The notes beneath the pieces are model-generated. The model had not been told where the DNA came from, searched no databases, and was given only the letters and a program-made list of their open reading frames with translations. Position numbers and translations under genes: made by a program. This document shows positions 39,262 to 63,149 of a stretch of DNA of 64,000 nucleotides, one piece after another. The DNA lies in the NCBI RefSeq assembly GCF_011022235.1, contig NZ_JAAIYP010000032.1, positions 1 to 64,000 of the forward strand, in the 5' to 3' direction. Position 1 is the first letter of the stretch; each line of letters starts with the position of its first letter. This stretch comes from Magnetospirillum aberrantis SpK. GTDB taxonomy: Bacteria > Pseudomonadota > Alphaproteobacteria > Rhodospirillales > Magnetospirillaceae.

Positions 39262-39761
39262 GGTGTCCCTCCCCCTTGTTGCCGGCCCAACCGAAGACCG
39301 GTCTTTTTCAGGATGCGGGTGGAAAACAAGACGCGATGACCGCGCGCCAACGGCCCCAGCGCCGTCGCCAGCCGCTCCACCAACGCGGTCGCGGCGGCTT
39401 CGTCACGGGCATGGATCATGGCGAAGATGTTGTAGGGCCAATCGGGCAACAGCCGTGGCCGCTGATAACAATGGCTGACGACACCCGTCGCGCAAAGCCG
39501 CCGCCCCGCCTCTTCCACATGGTCGTCGGCGACGTCCCACACGGTCATGCCGTTGAAGCGGTAGCCCAGGGCGTAATGATTGGGGACCACGCCGATCCGA
39601 CGCACGACGCCGTCTTGTTGCATGGCGTCAAGGCGGGCGATCACCACCTCGGCCGACAGGCCCAAGGCGTCGGCGACCGCGCCGTAAGGATCGGCCACCA
39701 GCGGCAGGCCACCTTGGGTGGCGATGACGATGGCGCGGTCGATGTCGTCCAGCTTCGTCAT
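39249..39761 (-). CDS. nirH: Siroheme decarboxylase subunit NirH
   Basis: 170 residues from ATG 39761, overlapping the nirG stop. AsnC/Lrp-like helix-turn-helix fold (DIDRAIVIATQGGLPL) and the Y-x-R-P-R-x-x-x-x-W-P-Y-x-x-F-x-M-I-H signature (CYQRPRLLPDWPYNIFAMIH) shared with NirL. With its partners it decarboxylates siroheme in heme d1 synthesis; it is not a DNA-binding regulator. Family assignment by order follows nirF-D-L-G-H-J. Confidence 0.9.
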   Translation of the reverse strand: MTKLDDIDRAIVIATQGGLPLVADPYGAVADALGLSAEVVIARLDAMQQDGVVRRIGVVPNHYALGYRFNGMTVWDVADDHVEEAGRRLCATGVVSHCYQRPRLLPDWPYNIFAMIHARDEAAATALVERLATALGPLARGHRVLFSTRILKKTGLRLGRQQGGGTPCSG

Positions 39762-40207
39762 GCCTCGAACCTCAACTGGACCAGGAACTCGCGCTGCTTG
39801 GGCATGTCGTGCACCGAAATCCCGGTCCGCGCCGCGATTTCGGCCAAGACCTCGTCCACCCGGACACGGCTTTCGGCGGCGACCACGAACCACATGTTGA
39901 AGCTGTGGTCGCGGGCGTAATTGTGGGCGACTTCATCGAAGGCGTTGACCAGTTCGGCCACCTCGTCGAAACGCTCTTCTGGCACCACCATGGCCGCCAG
40001 GGTGTTGTGCCCCCCGAAACGGTCGGCGTTGAACATCGGGCCGAAACGGCTCAGGACACCGCTCTCCCGCAGCTTTCGAATGCGGCCGATCAATTCGGCC
40101 TCGCTCAGGCCCAACGGCGCCGCCGCGTCGGCGAACGGCCGCCGGGTCAGCGGAAAACCGCCCTGAAGCGCATTGACGATACGGCGGTCGATGTCATCCA
40201 TGGTCAT
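39758..40207 (-). CDS. nirG: Siroheme decarboxylase subunit NirG
   Basis: 149 residues. ATG 40207 overlaps the nirL stop (ATGA). DDIDRRIVNALQGGFPLTRRP opens the AsnC-like fold and AHNYARDHSFNMWFVVAAES is the signature it shares with NirD. It pairs with NirH in the siroheme decarboxylase complex. Confidence 0.9.
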   Translation of the reverse strand: MTMDDIDRRIVNALQGGFPLTRRPFADAAAPLGLSEAELIGRIRKLRESGVLSRFGPMFNADRFGGHNTLAAMVVPEERFDEVAELVNAFDEVAHNYARDHSFNMWFVVAAESRVRVDEVLAEIAARTGISVHDMPKQREFLVQLRFEA

Positions 40208-56185: not shown

Positions 56186-56419
56186 ATGGATATTTCCCTG
56201 ACCACCATGAAACCCGGCGAAACCGCCAGGGTGACCGGCTTTGCCCGTGGCGAGCGCGGCTACCGCCAGCGCCTGTTGGCCATGGGATTGACGCCGGGTG
56301 CGGTGTTCTCGGTGACACGGGTCGCCCCCTTGGGTGACCCGGTGGAAATTTCGGTACGCAACTTCACCCTGACCTTGCGCAGGGAAGAAGCCGCAATCCT
56401 TAAGGCGGAAAGGATCTGA
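56186..56419 (+). CDS. feoA: Ferrous iron transport protein FeoA
   Basis: 77 residues, an SH3-like domain: MDISLTTMKPGETARVTGF, YRQRLLAMGLTPGAVFSV, VEISVRNFTLTLRREEAAIL. FeoA is a cytosolic partner of FeoB. ATG 56186 begins the operon feoA-feoB-feoC and lies 4 bp before feoB. Confidence 0.95.
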   Translation: MDISLTTMKPGETARVTGFARGERGYRQRLLAMGLTPGAVFSVTRVAPLGDPVEISVRNFTLTLRREEAAILKAERI

Positions 56420-56423
56420 ACCC

Positions 56424-58790
56424 ATGGCCCATGCGATCGCCGTCGTCGGCAATCCCAATTGCGGCAAGACCACTTTGTTCAACGCCCTGACCGGGGCCAA
56501 CCAGCAAGTTGGCAACTGGCCCGGCGTCACCGTGGAAAAGAAGGTCGGCACCTTCCGCCATGACGGCGAGACCTTCGATCTGGTCGATCTTCCCGGCGTC
56601 TACATGATCGGCGGCATCTCCGCCGGTTCCGAGGATGAACGGGTGGCGCGGGACTACATCCTGTCGGGCGAGCCCGAGGTGGTGGTCAACATCGTCGACG
56701 CCTACAACCTGGAACGGAACCTCTATCTCACCGCCCAGTTGCTTGAGATGCGGGTGCCCATGGTGGTGGCCATCAACATGATGGATCTGGCGGAAAAGAC
56801 CGGCATCCATATCGACGTCGCCGCCCTGTCCAAGATTCTGGATTGCCCGGTGGTGCCGATCGTCGCCAGCCGACGCAAGGGCGTCGCCGAGTTGCGTGCC
56901 GCCATCGCCGCCGCCGCCGCCAACCCCAAGGTCCCCGCCCATCAGCCCGAACACGCCGAGGCGGTCAACGCCGCCATCGACGTACTGGCCCCGGAACTGT
57001 CCGCCGCCGCCACCGCCGCCAAGGTTCCGGCGCGTTGGGCGGCGCTCAAGCTGATCGAAGGCGACAGCTTCGCCGACACATTGGCCGGAACCGGCCTGTC
57101 CCCGACGCTCGCCGCCCAGCGCGCCGCCATCGAGGAATCCTGTGGCGAGGAAGCCGACATCATCGTCGCCGACGGACGCTACAACTTCGTTTCGTCGGTG
57201 ATGGCCGCGTGTTTCCACCAGCCGCGCAAGGTGTCGCTGGCCATGACCCGGCGCATCGACAAGGTGGTGCTGAACCGCTGGCTTGGCGTGCCGGTGTTCC
57301 TGTTGGCCATGTACGTCATGTTCCTGTTCACCATCAACATCGGCGGCGCCTTCATCGACTTCTTCGACCAGGCGGTGGGCGCCCTTCTGGTGGACGAGGT
57401 CGGCGTGCTGCTGGCCGCGGCCGGCGCGCCGGACTGGCTGACCGCACTGATCCAGGGATTGGGCAGCGGCGTCCAGACCGTGTCCACCTTCATTCCGATC
57501 ATCGCCTGCCTGTTCCTGTTCCTGTCGTTCCTGGAAGATTCCGGCTACATGGCCCGCGCAGCCTTCGTCATGGATCGTGCCATGCGAGCCATCGGCTTGC
57601 CGGGTAAGTCGTTCGTGCCGCTTATCGTCGGCTTTGGCTGCAACGTGCCGGCGATCATGGCGACCCGCACCTTGGAAAGCCGCCGCGACCGCATCATGAC
57701 CTCGATGATGGCGCCGTTCATGTCGTGCGGCGCGCGTCTGCCGGTGTTCGCCCTGTTCGCCGCCGCCTTCTTTCCGCAGAACGGCCAGAACGTGGTGTTC
57801 GGCCTGTACCTCCTGGGCCTGCTGTTCGCCGTGCTGACCGGTCTGGTGCTGAAGACCACCCTGTTGCAGGGCGAGGCGTCGCATTTCGTCATGGAACTGC
57901 CGCCCTATCACCTGCCGACCGTGCGCACCGTGGTCTGGCAGGCTTGGCAGCGCTTGCGCGAATTCATCTTCCGGGCCGGCCAGATCATCGTGCCGATCGT
58001 CATGGTTCTCAGCTTCTTCAACGCCATGGGCACCGACGGCACCTTCGGCAAGGAAGACAGCCGCGATTCCGTCCTGTCGGCGGCCAGCCAGACCATCACC
58101 CCCATCTTCCATCCCATCGGCCTGACCGACGAGAACTGGCCGGCGGCGGTGGGATTGTTCACCGGCATCTTCGCCAAGGAAGCGGTGGTCGGCACCCTGA
58201 ACGCGCTGTACGCCCAGGCCAGCGCCGAAGACGCCGCCGCCGCGGCTGCGGCTGACGAAGCCAACGCGGGCGAAGGCGAAGCCGCCGCCGAGGAAGAAGA
58301 GGAAACCCTGGGGACCAAGCTGTTGGCCGCCGTGGCGACCATTCCCGAAAATCTGGCGGGTGTCGCCGATTCGCTGGGCGACCCCTTGGGCCTCAACGTC
58401 TCGTACACCGGCGACGCGGCGGAAGCCGCAGAGGAACTGGAGGTCGAGGACGGCGTGTTCGGCGCCATGGTCAGCCGCTTCGACGGCGCCGCCGGGGCGT
58501 TCGCCTACATGCTGCTGATCCTGCTCTACACCCCGTGCGTCGCCGCGCTGGGCGCCATCCGGCACGAAGCGGGTCTGGCCTGGACGGCGTTCGCCACCGC
58601 CTGGACCACCTCGCTTGGCTATATCGCCGCCGTCAGCTTCTACCAGATTTCCATCTTCAGCCGCGATCCCGCCAGCGCCACCGCCTGGCTGTTGGGATGC
58701 GGGGTGGCGGTGCTGTCGGCTGTCGGCATCATGTGGGTGGCCGGACGCACGCAAAGCCGTCGTCTGGCCGCCACCATGCCGGCGGAATAA
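56424..58790 (+). CDS. feoB: Ferrous iron transporter FeoB
   Basis: 788 residues. N-terminal G domain with GNPNCGKTT (9-17), DLPGVYM switch II and a guanine-specificity motif in VAINMMDLAEKTG, then the GDI helix domain and two Gate segments (FGCNVPAIMATRTLESRRDR and CGARLPVFALF). An acidic Ala/Glu-rich loop precedes the last helices. FeoB imports Fe(II) across the inner membrane. Full length and intact. Confidence 0.97.
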   Translation: MAHAIAVVGNPNCGKTTLFNALTGANQQVGNWPGVTVEKKVGTFRHDGETFDLVDLPGVYMIGGISAGSEDERVARDYILSGEPEVVVNIVDAYNLERNLYLTAQLLEMRVPMVVAINMMDLAEKTGIHIDVAALSKILDCPVVPIVASRRKGVAELRAAIAAAAANPKVPAHQPEHAEAVNAAIDVLAPELSAAATAAKVPARWAALKLIEGDSFADTLAGTGLSPTLAAQRAAIEESCGEEADIIVADGRYNFVSSVMAACFHQPRKVSLAMTRRIDKVVLNRWLGVPVFLLAMYVMFLFTINIGGAFIDFFDQAVGALLVDEVGVLLAAAGAPDWLTALIQGLGSGVQTVSTFIPIIACLFLFLSFLEDSGYMARAAFVMDRAMRAIGLPGKSFVPLIVGFGCNVPAIMATRTLESRRDRIMTSMMAPFMSCGARLPVFALFAAAFFPQNGQNVVFGLYLLGLLFAVLTGLVLKTTLLQGEASHFVMELPPYHLPTVRTVVWQAWQRLREFIFRAGQIIVPIVMVLSFFNAMGTDGTFGKEDSRDSVLSAASQTITPIFHPIGLTDENWPAAVGLFTGIFAKEAVVGTLNALYAQASAEDAAAAAAADEANAGEGEAAAEEEEETLGTKLLAAVATIPENLAGVADSLGDPLGLNVSYTGDAAEAAEELEVEDGVFGAMVSRFDGAAGAFAYMLLILLYTPCVAALGAIRHEAGLAWTAFATAWTTSLGYIAAVSFYQISIFSRDPASATAWLLGCGVAVLSAVGIMWVAGRTQSRRLAATMPAE

Positions 58791-58800
58791 GGGAGGCACG

Positions 58801-59016
58801 ATGACTGCCAGCGAACTCAAGGCCTATCTGGCCGAACGGGGACAGGCCAGCCTGGGCGACATCGCCATCCATTTCGGTTCGTCCCCCGACGCGGTGCGCC
58901 AAGCCGCCCAGCTTTGGGTCGGCAAGGGACGCTTGCGGGCGATCGAAGGCAGTGGCTGCAAGACCGGATGCAATTGTGGCCACAAACCCGAAACCGTCTA
59001 CGAGTGGGTCGGCTGA
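58801..59016 (+). CDS. feoC: FeoC-like winged-helix protein
   Basis: 71 residues from ATG 58801, 10 bp after feoB. N-terminal winged-helix (LKAYLAERGQASLGDIAIHF) and a C-terminal cysteine loop GCKTGCNCGHKP that could hold an Fe-S cluster or sense redox. FeoC controls FeoB stability. It ends where the next HMA-like gene begins. Confidence 0.9.
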   Translation: MTASELKAYLAERGQASLGDIAIHFGSSPDAVRQAAQLWVGKGRLRAIEGSGCKTGCNCGHKPETVYEWVG

Positions 59017-59493
59017 ATGGCCCGATCACCTTTGGTGTCGCGCCTTCCCGGCCGTCTGCGCCTGCGCCATGACTGGCTCAGGCGCACGGACGACAACCAT
59101 GCGTTCCGTGCCACCCTGGCCGGGTGGGAAGGCGTGCTCTCGGTCGAGGGCAACGCCGCCACCGGCGGCGTGCTGGTCCTTTACGACCCGGCCCGACTGG
59201 CGCCGTCCAACATGGAAACACGGGTCTCCGCCTGTCTTGCCGAAATGATTGGGACAGCGGCGCCCCCTTCCCCCGCCGCCAAACCCGCCCGCAATCCCCG
59301 CCGAAGCAAGCTTCAAGGTGTTCTTGACGACGGCGACATCCATCGTGTGGTCAAGATCGGCATGATGGCGACCATGGGCGGCAGCTTGCTCGCCCTTGCC
59401 GCCAGCAAGAAGTTCCATGCCGCCCTGGGGGGCCTGCATCTGGCTTTCCTGGCGTTCCACCTCGTCAAATACCGTAAGAAATTGCTGCGATAG
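59017..59493 (+). CDS. HMA-like protein with C-terminal membrane helix (fez cluster candidate)
   Basis: 158 residues. Starts directly after feoC with no gap. The N-terminal half has SRLPGRLRLRHDWLR, the HMA2-type P-G-R-x-R-L signature without a CxxC metal motif, and a ferredoxin-like fold. A basic linker (ARNPRRSKLQ) leads to hydrophobic segments (IGMMATMGGSLLALAA and LGGLHLAFLAFHLV). The same signature occurs in the next small gene and in the ATPase. Membrane-associated partner of iron handling is the inference. Confidence 0.7.
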   Translation: MARSPLVSRLPGRLRLRHDWLRRTDDNHAFRATLAGWEGVLSVEGNAATGGVLVLYDPARLAPSNMETRVSACLAEMIGTAAPPSPAAKPARNPRRSKLQGVLDDGDIHRVVKIGMMATMGGSLLALAASKKFHAALGGLHLAFLAFHLVKYRKKLLR

Positions 59494-59496
59494 GCC

Positions 59497-59838
59497 ATGA
59501 CCGCGTCCTCTTTTGTCGCCACGAACGAATCCCTGTGGCGTTTCGCCACCATGCTGAACATCGCCCACCACATTCCCGGACGGGTCCGCCTGAAAGTGGC
59601 GGCCAGTGCCGAAGCCGGGCTGGCCGCCGCCGTGGACGAAGCCAAAAGCTTCGTGCGGGCAGTCGAACGGGTTCCCGGCATCCGTTCGGTCAACCTCAAC
59701 CTGCTGGCCCGCTCCTGTGTGGTGGAATACGACCCGTCACAAATCGCCCCCATGGCGTGGGGAGACCTTGTATCCGGCAACCGCACCGCAGCCGCAGGAC
59801 AGTTGTTGTCCGCCATACATACCGCGAACAATTCTTAG
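59497..59838 (+). CDS. Small HMA-like protein (fez cluster candidate)
   Basis: 113 residues, 3 bp after the previous gene. IAHHIPGRVRLKVAASAEAG carries the same P-G-R-x-R-L signature; VPGIRSVNLNLLARSCVVEYDPSQI is the C-terminal half of the fold. No membrane helix, so cytosolic or bound to a membrane partner. No CxxC. It is the last gene before an A/T-rich gap of 186 bp. Confidence 0.7.
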   Translation: MTASSFVATNESLWRFATMLNIAHHIPGRVRLKVAASAEAGLAAAVDEAKSFVRAVERVPGIRSVNLNLLARSCVVEYDPSQIAPMAWGDLVSGNRTAAAGQLLSAIHTANNS

Positions 59839-59879
59839 TTCTTTCTTTCATAAAGAAGAGAACAGTTCTTAATTCTTTC
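59826..59879 (+). repeat. Direct repeats in the A/T-rich promoter region of the second fez block
   Basis: A 20-bp sequence GAACAnTTCTTAnTTCTTTC occurs at 59826-59845 and 59860-59879 with two mismatches and a 34-bp period. The first copy includes the stop of the upstream gene. The local A/T content is far above the neighbourhood. Confidence 0.75.
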
Positions 59880-59889
59880 AAATAAAATG

Positions 59890-59914
59890 ATCACCATATC
59901 TAATTCTGGTGAAA
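59890..59914 (+). promoter_or_regulatory. Inverted repeat upstream of the small membrane protein genes
   Basis: ATCACCA-tatctaattc-TGGTGAaAT, arms TCACCA/TGGTGA (59891-59896 and 59907-59912). Together with the two direct repeats just upstream it marks the probable promoter-operator of the 60025-63149 operon. Confidence 0.45.
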
Positions 59915-60024
59915 TCAACTTTTTTCATTGTACGTCGCCATACCGAGTAGCACGATGTTACGGTTTTAAGGCACACCTCACGCGAGCATCGAACTTTCGG
60001 CGTCGCGTCATGAAAGGAACCGCC

Positions 60025-60402
60025 ATGCTTCCTTTGCTCACTTTCGCATCGGGCCTGGTCGCCGGCATCGTCGGCGTCCGTATCGCCAAGTCGGTCAAAG
60101 CTCCCGAAAGCCTGCGCAGCGCGGCCAGCACCGTGGGCGACAAGGCCCGCCAAGGTCTGGATCAGGCGCAAAGCGGCTTGCGCGGCGCCGCCGTCACCAG
60201 TCTTTCCGCCATCGAGAAGTCTTCGGCGTCGCTGCGTCAGAAGTTGACCCCGGCGGAAACTGAAACAGCTCCCGCCGAAGCCACGGTTGAAAAGGCCGCC
60301 GCCGCCAAGCCGGCCCGCAAGCGCCCGGCCCCCCGGAAGAAAACCGCCGCCAAGCCGGCCGCCGAACCCGTGGCCGACGCCCCCACCGGAGAGGCCTCGT
60401 GA
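60025..60402 (+). CDS. Small membrane-anchored protein with a Lys/Pro/Ala-rich tail
   Basis: 125 residues from ATG 60025, preferred to ATG 60010 because GAAAGGAA precedes it. N-terminal helix LLTFASGLVAGIVGVRIAKSV with a small-residue face, then an amphipathic stretch, and a disordered tail of AAAKPARKRPAPRKKTAAKP type. Magnetosome and PHA-granule proteins show similar tails, but I recognise no family. It begins a run of three small genes before the ATPase; its stop overlaps the next start. Confidence 0.65.
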   Translation: MLPLLTFASGLVAGIVGVRIAKSVKAPESLRSAASTVGDKARQGLDQAQSGLRGAAVTSLSAIEKSSASLRQKLTPAETETAPAEATVEKAAAAKPARKRPAPRKKTAAKPAAEPVADAPTGEAS

Positions 60403-60737
60403 AGCGCGCCAAGCGCAAGGATCTGATGGCCGGGGACGACGTTCCCACGGTCTTCCTGCGCGGCATGATGGTGACCGGCCTGTTGGTGGCGATCCAGGAT
60501 CGGCGGGCCGCCCGCCGTCCGGCGGCGCCGGCCAAGGTGCTGCGCCATGCCCTTCAGGGTGGTGCCGCGCTGGCGGCGGGAACGGTCGCAGCCCGTGCCT
60601 TGACCCGGAACGATCTGCCGCTGGCGCTGACCGCCATCGCCGCCGGCGCGGCGGGCGTGCTGGCCGCCGAAGCCCTGATCCCTTCCCCCGACACCGACGA
60701 CATCAAGGAGAGTGGCCGTGGCCAAGAAGAAGTCTAA
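60399..60737 (+). CDS. Small protein with two hydrophobic segments
   Basis: 112 residues. GTG 60399 overlaps the previous stop (GTGA). KRAKRKDLMAGDD is a basic start, followed by hydrophobic segments TVFLRGMMVTGLLVAI and LQGGAALAAGTVAA / LALTAIAAGAAGVLAAEALI. No family recognised. Coupling to its neighbours on both sides shows that it belongs to the ATPase operon. Confidence 0.65.
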   Translation: MKRAKRKDLMAGDDVPTVFLRGMMVTGLLVAIQDRRAARRPAAPAKVLRHALQGGAALAAGTVAARALTRNDLPLALTAIAAGAAGVLAAEALIPSPDTDDIKESGRGQEEV

Positions 60738-61059
60738 GCAGTCCAAGCAGTTGAAGCGCCTGATGCGCGACATGCAATCGTCCATGGGAGCCAACGCCAC
60801 CCTGGCTGCCAATCAGAATAGCGGGTTGTTCAGCGGCTTGAGCCGGCTGTTGCCGTCGCGCCGCACCGACCAGTTCCTGGTGGGCCTGTTGCTCGGCGCC
60901 GCCGCTACCTACGTGCTGAGCGACGAGGAATTGCGCGGCAAGATCATGAAATCCGGCGCCAAGCTGTATGGCGGCATGGTCGGCGGTCTCGAGGAAATGA
61001 AGGAGCAGATGGCCGACATCCGTGCCGAGCTGACGGCCGAGCAGAACGGCAGCCTATGA
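60718..61059 (+). CDS. Small glycine-zipper membrane protein
   Basis: 113 residues from GTG 60718 (AAGGAG 7 bp upstream; GTG 60712 is too close). Lys-rich N-terminus (KKKSKQSKQLKRL), one helix FLVGLLLGAAATYVLSDEEL with a YtxH-like small-residue pattern, then an amphipathic helix (LEEMKEQMADIRAELTAEQ). Its stop overlaps the ATPase ATG. Function unknown; likely an organelle-membrane or accessory protein. Confidence 0.65.
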   Translation: MAKKKSKQSKQLKRLMRDMQSSMGANATLAANQNSGLFSGLSRLLPSRRTDQFLVGLLLGAAATYVLSDEELRGKIMKSGAKLYGGMVGGLEEMKEQMADIRAELTAEQNGSL

Positions 61060-63149
61060 CCGTTCCTTTCTGGCTGAGCGCGGTGGATGTCCTCCACCGC
61101 GTTCCGGGCCGCGTGCGGTTGCGGTATCGCCTGGCCCCCGACACGCCCGACGATGCAGCCGCCTTGCGCCGGCTGGTGGCCGACCTTCCCGGCGTTTCCC
61201 ATTGCCGGGTCAACGCCCGCATCCGTTCCGTGGTGGTCGAATTCGCCCCCGAGGAAACCTGCGCCGAACAGGTGGCGGACGGCATGCGGAACCTGCCGGC
61301 GCCGCTGGCCCTGATTCCGGCTGACGCTCGCGACGATGGCCGCGCGGCGGTCGCCGCCAGCCTGGCGACCCTGGTGGGCAGCGGCCTGTTGCCCCGCCCC
61401 ATCCAATTCCCGGTGGCTCTGGCCGGCGCCTTGCCGTTGTTCCGCCACGCCGCCGCCGATTACACGGAAAAGGGCGTCACCTCGCATGTGCTCGAGGGCA
61501 TGGCGGTCGCCATCTCGCTGGCACGGGCCGATTACACCGCCGCCAACACCACCACCTTCATGCTGGTGCTGGGCGAATATCTGGAAGATTCCATCGCCCG
61601 ACGCTCCGACGAATTGCTGAAACACCTGTTGCGGCCGTCCAGCGACCAGGTTTGGGTGCTGCGCGACGGCGTCGAGGTCCAGGTTCCCACTCAATCGGTC
61701 GAGGTGGGCGACACCGTGGTGGTCGGCACCGGCACGGTCATCCCCGTCGACGGCACCGTTCTGGGCGGCGAGGCCATGGTCAACGAAGCGGCCATGACCG
61801 GCGAGAGCGTCTCTGTGGTCAAGAACCGGGGCAAGGGCGTGCTGTCGGGTACCCTGGTCGAGGAAGGGCGGCTGTCCATTTATGCCGAGCAGGTGGGAAC
61901 CGCCACCGCCGCCGCCCGCATCGCCGAATACGTGGAACAGTCGCTGACCGCCAAGAGCGAAGCCCAGCTCGAGGCGGCGCGCATGGCCGACCGGCTGGTG
62001 CCGGTGGTGCTCAAGCTGGCGGGTGCGGCGTTCCTGGTGTCGGGCGACTGGCGACGCGCCGCCTCGGTGCTTCAGGCCGATTATTCCTGCGCCCTCAAAC
62101 TGGCGACGCCGGTGGCGTTCAAATCGGCCATGTACGGGGCCGGCCGCGCCGGCATCCTGGTCAAGGGCGCATCGGCGTTGGAACGTCTGGCCCAGGCCGA
62201 TACCTTCGTGTTCGACAAGACCGGCACCCTGACCACCGGTATCCTTGAGGTCACCGACGCCATCACCTTCGACGAACGCTACAGCGCCGACGATCTGATC
62301 TGTTTGGCGGCATCGGTCGAGGAACACTATTTCCACCCGCTGGCCCTGGCGGTGGTCAACGCCGCCCGCGCCACCCACAATCACCATTTCGACCATCAGG
62401 AAGTTCAGTTCATCGTCGCCCACGGCGTCGCCAGCGTCATCGACGGCAAGCGCATCGTGGTGGGGTCGCGCCATTTCGTCCAGGAAGACGAAGGCGTCAA
62501 CGTCACCCCCCACCAGCACGTCATCGACGCGCTGTATCAGCAAGGCAAGACCTTGCTGTTCATCGGCTTCGGTGGGCGTCTTCTGGGCCTGATCGCCCTC
62601 AAGGACAGCACCCGCGTCACCAGCGCCCGCACCATCCGCCGGCTGCGCGAACTGGGGGTGAAACGCATCCTGCTGCTGACCGGCGACCATCGCGACCGGG
62701 CCGAGGAACTGGCCGCCGAACTGGGACTGGACGGCGTGCACGCCGAACTGATGCCCCAGGACAAGGCCCGGATCATCGAAACGCTGAACCAGGACGGCGC
62801 CCGTATCGCCTTTGTCGGCGACGGCATCAACGATGCTCCGGCCCTGGCCGGCGCCCATGTGGGCATCGCCATGCAGAAGGGGGCCGACATCGCGCGGCTG
62901 ACCGCCGATGTCGCCTTGCTCGAAGACGACATCGAACGGGTGGCCGACGCCAAACAGGCGGCCAACGACGTGATGGAGCTGATCGGCCGCAATTACCGTA
63001 TGACGGTGGGGCTGAACACCGCCATCCTGGGCGCCGCCGCCTTGGGCCTGTTGTCGCCGGTGGCGACGTCGATCCTGCACAACGGCACCACCATCGGCAT
63101 CCTGTTGAACGCCCTCAGGCGCCGCAAGCCGGCTCCCCGTCAGGATTGA
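61056..63149 (+). CDS. P1B-type metal ATPase resembling FezB (P1B-6 group)
   Basis: 697 residues. N-terminal HMA-like domain with HRVPGRVRLRYRLAPD and no CxxC. Actuator TGES (MTGESVSV), phosphorylation site DKTGT (about 387), HP motif YFHPLALAV (about 426), and GDGINDAPAL (about 588) are intact, so it is an active-type ATPase. The transmembrane metal motif is Ser-Cys-Ala (DYSCALKLATP, about 344) in place of CPC/SPC/TPC. FezB of ferrosomes belongs to the P1B-6 group with a non-CPC motif. Location beside feoABC supports iron as substrate. Confidence 0.85.
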   Translation: MTVPFWLSAVDVLHRVPGRVRLRYRLAPDTPDDAAALRRLVADLPGVSHCRVNARIRSVVVEFAPEETCAEQVADGMRNLPAPLALIPADARDDGRAAVAASLATLVGSGLLPRPIQFPVALAGALPLFRHAAADYTEKGVTSHVLEGMAVAISLARADYTAANTTTFMLVLGEYLEDSIARRSDELLKHLLRPSSDQVWVLRDGVEVQVPTQSVEVGDTVVVGTGTVIPVDGTVLGGEAMVNEAAMTGESVSVVKNRGKGVLSGTLVEEGRLSIYAEQVGTATAAARIAEYVEQSLTAKSEAQLEAARMADRLVPVVLKLAGAAFLVSGDWRRAASVLQADYSCALKLATPVAFKSAMYGAGRAGILVKGASALERLAQADTFVFDKTGTLTTGILEVTDAITFDERYSADDLICLAASVEEHYFHPLALAVVNAARATHNHHFDHQEVQFIVAHGVASVIDGKRIVVGSRHFVQEDEGVNVTPHQHVIDALYQQGKTLLFIGFGGRLLGLIALKDSTRVTSARTIRRLRELGVKRILLLTGDHRDRAEELAAELGLDGVHAELMPQDKARIIETLNQDGARIAFVGDGINDAPALAGAHVGIAMQKGADIARLTADVALLEDDIERVADAKQAANDVMELIGRNYRMTVGLNTAILGAAALGLLSPVATSILHNGTTIGILLNALRRRKPAPRQD

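Follow-up and report, generated by a model that had tools for sequence, protein, structure and literature searches.

A probable ferrosome (fez) operon of the Rhodopseudomonas palustris type behind feoABC in Magnetospirillum aberrantis SpK

Introduction

Ferrosomes are small intracellular iron stores enclosed by a membrane. Grant et al. (2022) are reported to have described six-gene fez operons in Rhodopseudomonas palustris and Shewanella putrefaciens and three Fez proteins in Desulfovibrio magneticus. An arginine-rich HMA-like N terminus without CxxC is a feature that we take to be characteristic of Fez proteins. In R. palustris CGA009, ferrosomes are produced by a set of six fez genes (PMC12016538). 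Binding of haem b has been demonstrated for the FezC protein of Desulfurispirillum indicum, with a model in which the haem sites lie between two FezC copies (PMC10979944). Here, we analyzed a 64,000-nucleotide stretch of Magnetospirillum aberrantis SpK (assembly GCF_011022235.1, contig NZ_JAAIYP010000032.1, positions 1 to 64,000; “the window”), in which feoABC is followed by six further plus-strand genes (59017-63149), the first of which starts directly at the feoC stop codon (gap 0). We call the six genes hmaA, hmaB, sp1, sp2, sp3, and fezB; all but the last name are working labels coined in this analysis. They had been proposed from the DNA alone as a candidate ferrosome locus (the original prediction), and this proposal is supported by the P1B-6 clade to which the ATPase belongs and by a gene-for-gene match with R. 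palustris PS3. We give a probability of roughly 0.9 to the reading that the six genes are a ferrosome operon of the R. palustris type.

Gene order and conservation

The fez operon of R. palustris PS3 (genome G713, locus L212) reads hmaA-hmaB-sp1-sp2-sp3-fezB, the same order and direction as in the window, and all six of its genes are backed by both hidden Markov model (HMM) and BLAST matches. In BLASTP comparisons, the window and PS3 proteins are 71% identical over 701 amino acids (FezB), 59% over 75 (sp1), 53% over 68 (sp3), 52% over 96 (hmaB), 44% over 59 (sp2), and 35% over 164 (hmaA). The same six-gene order is also found in L211, L213, and L214, which belong to the family of a Xanthobacter metagenome-assembled genome (MAG; L077). 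Because the window operon is gene for gene like that of PS3, and because six fez genes suffice to name the ferrosome set of R. palustris CGA009, we read it as an operon that would build ferrosomes.

A search of the nearest relatives (41 genomes) identified nine with an ATPase orthologue at 70% identity or more, namely, the host, 7 of 12 other congeners (the frame being broken in one, G007), and 1 of 12 genomes from other genera of the family; at this threshold, no orthologue was found in the 16 genomes from other families of the order. The six-gene order is kept in all eight relatives that have the ATPase. As the whole order recurs in these eight and in PS3, the arrangement is more than chance, and the description of six same-direction genes downstream of feoABC in two tightly coupled blocks is borne out by the gaps and by this synteny. 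The Feo setting, taken at first as fitting a ferrosome, is real in that Pfam identifies feoABC directly upstream, but it is not diagnostic: feoABC adjoins the cluster in only four of the eight syntenic relatives, and we rejected it as a mark of fez.

At class level, at least 3 of 385 genomes (host included) were positive in a search that scored at most three candidates per genome, so that copies may be missed. P1B-6 ATPases of the FezB type (E <=1e-180) were found in at least 10 of 117 genomes in the genus of L083 (Shewanella), at least 14 of 296 in the family of L077, and at least 148 of 247 in the family of L115 (Desulfovibrio), with the best few candidates per genome scored and the query genomes counted.

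The ATPase is of the P1B-6 type

The fezB product is a heavy-metal P-type ATPase (NCBIfam TIGR01525, 480.7 bits). Its N terminus is arginine-rich and HMA-like (HRVPGRVRLR, 61095-61124), M4 carries the motif DYSCALKLATP (62079-62111), and the last helix, M6, has an HN pair (63078-63083). The window ATPase has no CPC motif, as had been predicted and as the motif scan bears out, and no CxxC occurs in hmaA, hmaB, or the ATPase. HN in transmembrane helix 6 is given as a P1B6 feature in PMC9374683. Among P1B-6 open reading frames (ORFs) of at least 600 amino acids, HN is present in 100 of 103 and CPC in none, and 2 of the 103 have CxxC within the first 140 residues; among 29 control paralogues, which include at least two proteins entered twice, HN is present in one (Escherichia coli CopA) and CPC in 25. 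The arginine motif reads HxxPGRxRL in hmaB and the ATPase and LPGRLRLRH in hmaA; a loose form of it occurs in 84 of the 103 P1B-6 ORFs and proves little alone, because 9 of the 29 control paralogues carry that form too. The loci (80 in total) were collected with two patterns, one of them built on the DYSC motif, so DYSC conservation among them is by construction; the HN pair and the arginine motif are unaffected.

In a tree of 42 rows, the window ATPase falls within a 31-row P1B-6 clade (100/99), outside which lie CopA of E. coli and the CPC pumps of the host itself. An inner nine-row clade (100/99) unites it with FezB of R. palustris PS3 and with proteins of Azospirillum, Sinirhodobacter, and Magnetospirillum. 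The P1B tree that the original prediction called for thus groups the ATPase with a FezB, and a placement in a Cu, Zn, or Mn clade outside P1B-6, named there as the result that would contradict the idea, did not occur. By motifs and tree position, the window ATPase is a predicted FezB. A conventional Cu/Zn/Cd/Co export ATPase with helper chaperones, lying behind feoABC by chance, would account for the matches to generic P-type ATPase models (TIGR01525 and TIGR01512) and for the metallochaperone-like fold that HMA-like proteins share; it is at odds with the missing CPC and CxxC motifs and with the position of the ATPase outside the CPC group of CopA and the host paralogues. On the tree and these motifs, we rejected a Cu/Zn exporter identity, and the export reading as a whole is highly improbable.

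The small partner genes accompany P1B-6 ATPases elsewhere. With iterated profiles, neighbours within 1.5 kb were of the sp3 type at 74, the HMA_2 type at 43, the sp2 type at 33, and the sp1 type at 8 of 78 P1B-6 loci (the 80 fetched minus L098 and L129, which had no ATPase ORF by the rule used); 74 is an upper figure because the profiles were iterated on the very loci counted. First-round profiles of nine sequences (E 0.01, anywhere in the locus) matched 49 loci for sp3, 19 for sp2, and 15 for sp1, Magnetospirillum included. No sp1, sp2, or sp3 neighbour was found in the flanks (up to 1.5 kb) of 23 CPC-ATPases, and one HMA-type neighbour was found there, at L033, where a stop interrupts the ATPase.

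hmaA resembles FezC

FezC is a DUF4405-like haem b protein, and hmaA resembles it. In a magnetochrome-positive genome that we take to be D. magneticus RS-1 (G980, locus L224), the protein in the FezC position matches hmaA by BLASTP at 7.6e-10 (29% over 153 amino acids) and by a nine-sequence HMM at 1.6e-18. Seven residues are invariant in all 22 aligned hmaA-type proteins: S8, G12, R13, and R15, which lie in the arginine-rich HMA part, together with H134, G138, and H148 of the membrane hairpin. An AlphaFold2 model (predicted local distance difference test [pLDDT] score, 85.3; predicted template modelling [pTM] score, 0.58) shows an HMA-type fold and, after it, two long helices, and a Foldseek search with it returned mostly HMA domains among its best rows (best E, 0.01; none at 0.001). 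The best reading is that hmaA is FezC-like and that H134 (codon 59416-59418) and H148 (codon 59458-59460) are candidate haem b ligands. The second gene, hmaB, encodes a protein with an HMA_2 match above the cut-off (38.7 bits) and the motif HHIPGRVRLK.

In five Campylobacterota loci (L061, L062, L063, L065, and L066), the FezC-type two-histidine hairpin is a separate protein of 75 to 98 amino acids, near fezB and without HMA_2. Since the hairpin is free-standing there, the two parts of FezC look like separable modules.

Ferrosome and magnetosome genes in the host genus

The original prediction envisaged an iron organelle distinct from magnetosomes in a Magnetospirillum-like cell. The first part stands, the host being Magnetospirillum-like (one congener, G012, matches Magnetospirillum sp. 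W65); as to magnetosomes, the host genome (G000) yielded no match to magnetochrome (PF18509) or MamC (NF038051). Both searches had positive controls, in that magnetochrome domains occur in 4 of 13 genomes of the genus and MamC scores above its cut-off in the same four. The host is therefore probably not magnetotactic.

The fez cluster is present in 8 of the 13 genomes of the genus, and G007, which we take to be M. gryphiswaldense MSR-1, is the only one with both fez genes and magnetosome markers. Its six-gene cluster (L043, G007:C1, about 4.065 Mb) has an ATPase whose frame is broken near residue 607 in the assembly, by either decay or sequencing error. Mutual exclusion of fez and magnetosome genes in the genus is suggestive only: P is 0.22 if G007 is counted as fez positive and 0.02 if the broken ATPase is excluded, kinship being ignored in both cases.

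Outside the genus, a member of the same family (G013) has magnetochrome on contigs C230, C251, and C323 and an intact six-gene cluster (L042, G013:C196). It is a candidate cell with both iron organelles; the contamination of the bin is 7%.

sp2 and the MamC family

The counterpart of sp2 in Shewanella sp. TC10 matches the NCBIfam MamC model (NF038051) at 2.9e-7, as do 21 of 37 aligned sp2-type proteins at E <=0.01 (best, 3.9e-13); the window sp2 gave no match. When a profile of four MamC sequences from congeners was run on the 8,407 ORFs of the fetched loci, ranks 1 to 24 were all sp2-type proteins, a label assigned before MamC was brought in, and the first ORF of another type came at rank 25 (E 0.38). 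None of the Magnetospirillum- and R. palustris-type sp2 copies, those of the window and PS3 included, was matched by this profile. As there is no direct match, what ties the window sp2 to MamC is the wider sp2 family together with the fixed place of the gene. Searched the other way, the sp2 profile picks up MamC with E values of 6e-17 to 1e-13. Alignment of the sp2 family (A8) against MamC by hhalign gives a probability of 97 (E 4e-11). In the magnetosome region of G007 (579 ORFs), the iterated sp2 profile finds MamC at 4.9e-9 and one other match at E 0.09, and the sp1, sp3, hmaA, and hmaB profiles give nothing at E 0.1. The AlphaFold2 model of sp2 has a pLDDT of 75.5 and a pTM of 0.51. From these profile matches, sp2-type proteins and MamC appear to be one family.

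In a tree of 49 rows, MamC groups with MamC-like genes from two Desulfovibrio-family genomes that are magnetochrome negative (98/89); the addition of three more fez-linked rows gives a nine-row group (97/94) inside the fez-linked family. We treat the direction of transfer as hypothetical, because the tree has 121 columns from Gly/Ala-rich helices and a midpoint root. One proposal, which we hold at even odds, is that a building block common to magnetosomes and ferrosomes goes back to shared descent. MamC, an abundant protein of the magnetosome membrane, would be one branch of a family otherwise encoded beside FezB in non-magnetotactic bacteria and would have entered the magnetosome island from a ferrosome-type cluster; in the genus, the two organelles would largely replace each other.

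Two Desulfovibrio-family loci (L220 in G885 and L222 in G942; family of L115) are large regions of the fez type. They encode several P-type ATPases, of which two have the P1B-6 M4 motif. Both regions hold an sp2-type gene as well as a gene closer to MamC (E 3e-12 and 2e-14), in genomes without magnetochrome.

A second sp2-type protein of the host (E 2.0e-16 to A8) is encoded at G000:C31, about 39,650-40,140 (L046, 9479-10275, minus strand), close to the contig end at 40,311. It lies directly before an HMA_2 protein (34.5 bits) and an ORF with DUF2202 (23.5 bits; cut-off, 22), a domain that we take to be ferritin-like. No second FezB was seen in the host genome, and these genes may belong to an accessory set for ferrosomes that the contig end truncates.

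sp1 and sp3

By eye, sp1 has a single membrane helix at its N terminus, along with an amphipathic stretch and a tail rich in K, P, and A, and its N terminus is conserved as MLPxLTFASGxVAG in a nine-sequence alignment. Also by eye, sp3 has one membrane helix and an EMKEQ/AE-rich stretch. It is 37% identical over 59 amino acids to its Shewanella counterpart, which the nine-sequence sp3 profile matches at 5e-12. Matches of sp3 to YtxH and DUF5132 were under the Pfam cut-off and led nowhere. An iterated sp3 profile, partly circular, joins the window, Shewanella, RS-1-like, and DUF6110 neighbours, and it alone reaches the RS-1-like protein in the FezA position (2e-12); the latter scores 14.2 bits against DUF6110, under the cut-off of 26. 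By position and iterated profile only, sp3 resembles FezA/DUF6110 proteins.

This resemblance bears on a different explanation, a metal-efflux platform in the plasma membrane at which the P1B-6 ATPase would export Fe or another metal and the small proteins would cluster the ATPase in the manner of PacL, with no organelle. In the available portion of PMC9374683, DUF6110 proteins are typically encoded with P1B6 ATPases, and PacL1, which consists of one helix and a cytoplasmic part of Glu/Ala repeats, clusters the mycobacterial Zn pump CtpC; in keeping with this, the sp3-type neighbour of a Ruminococcus P1B-6 ATPase (L105) is a DUF6110 protein (113 bits). The gene set of the window, however, is that of R. 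palustris, in which six fez genes make ferrosomes, and partners of the hmaA, hmaB, and sp2 types are not mentioned for PacL systems in that portion of PMC9374683. We consider the platform improbable as the whole explanation; it and the ferrosome may be stages of one mechanism.

Layout of the locus

The features are listed in Table 1. Judged by the tight gaps and overlaps, there are two coupled blocks, feoABC-hmaA-hmaB and sp1-sp2-sp3-fezB. The open frame of sp1 extends back to 59887, and we set its start at the ATG at 60025, where conservation in relatives begins. A terminator in the gap between the blocks is not significant (fold z = -1.5; 19 of 200 shuffles were as good).

Table 1. Features of the feo-fez region of the window
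Feature	Coordinates	Strand	Remarks
feoA	56186-56419	+	Pfam FeoA 73.5 bits, above cut-off; ferrous iron uptake; opens the co-directional run
feoB	56424-58790	+	Pfam FeoB_N 229 bits, above cut-off; NCBIfam FeoB 808.9 bits; ferrous iron uptake
feoC	58801-59016	+	Pfam FeoC 65.6 bits, above cut-off
hmaA (FezC-like)	59017-59493	+	0 bases after feoC; HMA_2-type arginine-rich domain and two-helix anchor
hmaB	59497-59838	+	3 bases after hmaA; stand-alone HMA_2 protein
hmaB-sp1 gap	59839-60024		186 bases, separates the two blocks; weak hairpin at gap start
sp1	60025-60402	+	186 bases after hmaB; no Pfam family above cut-off
sp2	60399-60737	+	overlaps sp1 by 4 bases; small membrane protein of an apparent family that includes MamC
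sp3	60712-61059	+	overlaps sp2 by 26 bases; small protein, resembles FezA/DUF6110
fezB (P1B-6 ATPase)	61056-63149	+	overlaps sp3 by 4 bases; 697 amino acids

Discussion

Several observations count against a ferrosome operon. (i) The names PS3 (G713) and RS-1 (G980) were assigned indirectly. (ii) Family models recognize hmaA poorly: it scores 29.1 bits against Pfam HMA_2, just below the cut-off of 30; PS3 hmaA matches no Pfam family at E 0.05; and of six hmaA-type proteins scanned, those of the window and the RS-1-like locus included, one has a DUF4405 match, which is weak and under the cut-off (E 0.0049). (iii) The nine-sequence sp3 profile misses the RS-1-like protein in the FezA position. 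(iv) An FNR-like pattern (up to one mismatch) occurs twice in the window, with 0.71 expected, and not near the operon.

If the six genes do form a ferrosome operon, the following mechanism can be proposed, in which we infer iron as the substrate, haem binding, vesicle formation, and the storage role from R. palustris, D. magneticus, and Clostridioides difficile (for the last, PMC12574912). FeoABC would import Fe(II) into the cytoplasm, and FezB, located in the membrane of an intracellular vesicle, would pump it into the lumen, where iron would be kept in the form of an iron-phosphate mineral. In hmaA, hmaB, and FezB, the arginine-rich HMA-like domains, which are without CxxC, probably have one another, phosphate, or anionic lipid as binding partners and not Cu or Zn. 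Probably as a dimer, hmaA may hold haem b through H134 and H148 and change the redox state of the stored iron. The products of sp1, sp2, and sp3 would form a coat or scaffold that shapes or lines the vesicle, with sp2 possibly acting there much as MamC does on the surface of magnetite.

The analysis places a complete operon of the ferrosome type in Magnetospirillum members without magnetosome markers and in two relatives with them (one with a broken ATPase frame). These organisms offer a natural setting for asking how one supply of iron is divided between two iron organelles. What a specialist would find surprising is the MamC relationship; no published statement of a MamC-ferrosome link was found in the available portions of the literature searched, in which Grant 2022 is not covered. 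If the proposed descent is true, part of the magnetic organelle was taken over from an older organelle for iron storage. Because fez clusters contain a MamC-type protein, the idea that parts of the two organelles have a common origin can be tested directly. The same protein offers a hypothesis for fez small proteins without an assigned function, namely, mineral binding or templating at the vesicle membrane.

Comparison with known systems

Counterparts were found in the fez clusters of all three groups proposed for comparison (R. palustris, Shewanella, and Desulfovibrio). Compared through its PS3 copy, the R. palustris operon (CGA009 RPA2333-2338) shares the six genes, their order, and their orientation with the window operon; the latter stands directly behind feoABC and has a 186-base gap after the second gene.

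The Shewanella fez-type loci (L083 of Shewanella sp. TC10, L216, and L217) have counterparts of hmaB, sp2, sp3, and fezB in order, including an sp2 that matches MamC; in contrast to the window, a divergent HMA_2 gene on the other strand stands in for hmaA, and the place of sp1 is taken by a Pro/His-rich protein of 287 to 306 amino acids that ends in an sp3-like helix. In place of the usual Shewanella type, one locus from the same genus (L219, G509) has R. palustris-type hmaA, hmaB, sp1, sp2, and fezB with no sp3 match, and on the tree its ATPase falls with the R. palustris type; a transfer of this set is possible.

The D. magneticus-type fezABC (L224) shares with the window an sp3-like gene, a P1B-6 ATPase, and a FezC-type gene with HMA_2 and two helices, which stand in this order at L224, and by position and make-up its three genes are the putative fezA, fezB, and fezC. 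It differs in having only three genes, with counterparts of hmaB, sp1, and sp2 not found beside them, and in a FezB that is 36% identical over 719 columns.

Two further systems share single components with the locus. MamC/Mms13 of magnetosomes, apparently of one family with the sp2-type proteins and nested inside them on the tree, is a product of the magnetosome island with a longer charged loop, most of which the window sp2 lacks in the alignment. The mycobacterial PacL1-CtpC pair likewise combines a P1B ATPase with a small, single-helix, scaffold-like partner, but CtpC is a Zn resistance pump of the CPC type, and no FezC- or MamC-like partner is described in the available portion of PMC9374683. 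Among all of these systems, the window locus compares most closely with the six-gene operon of R. palustris.

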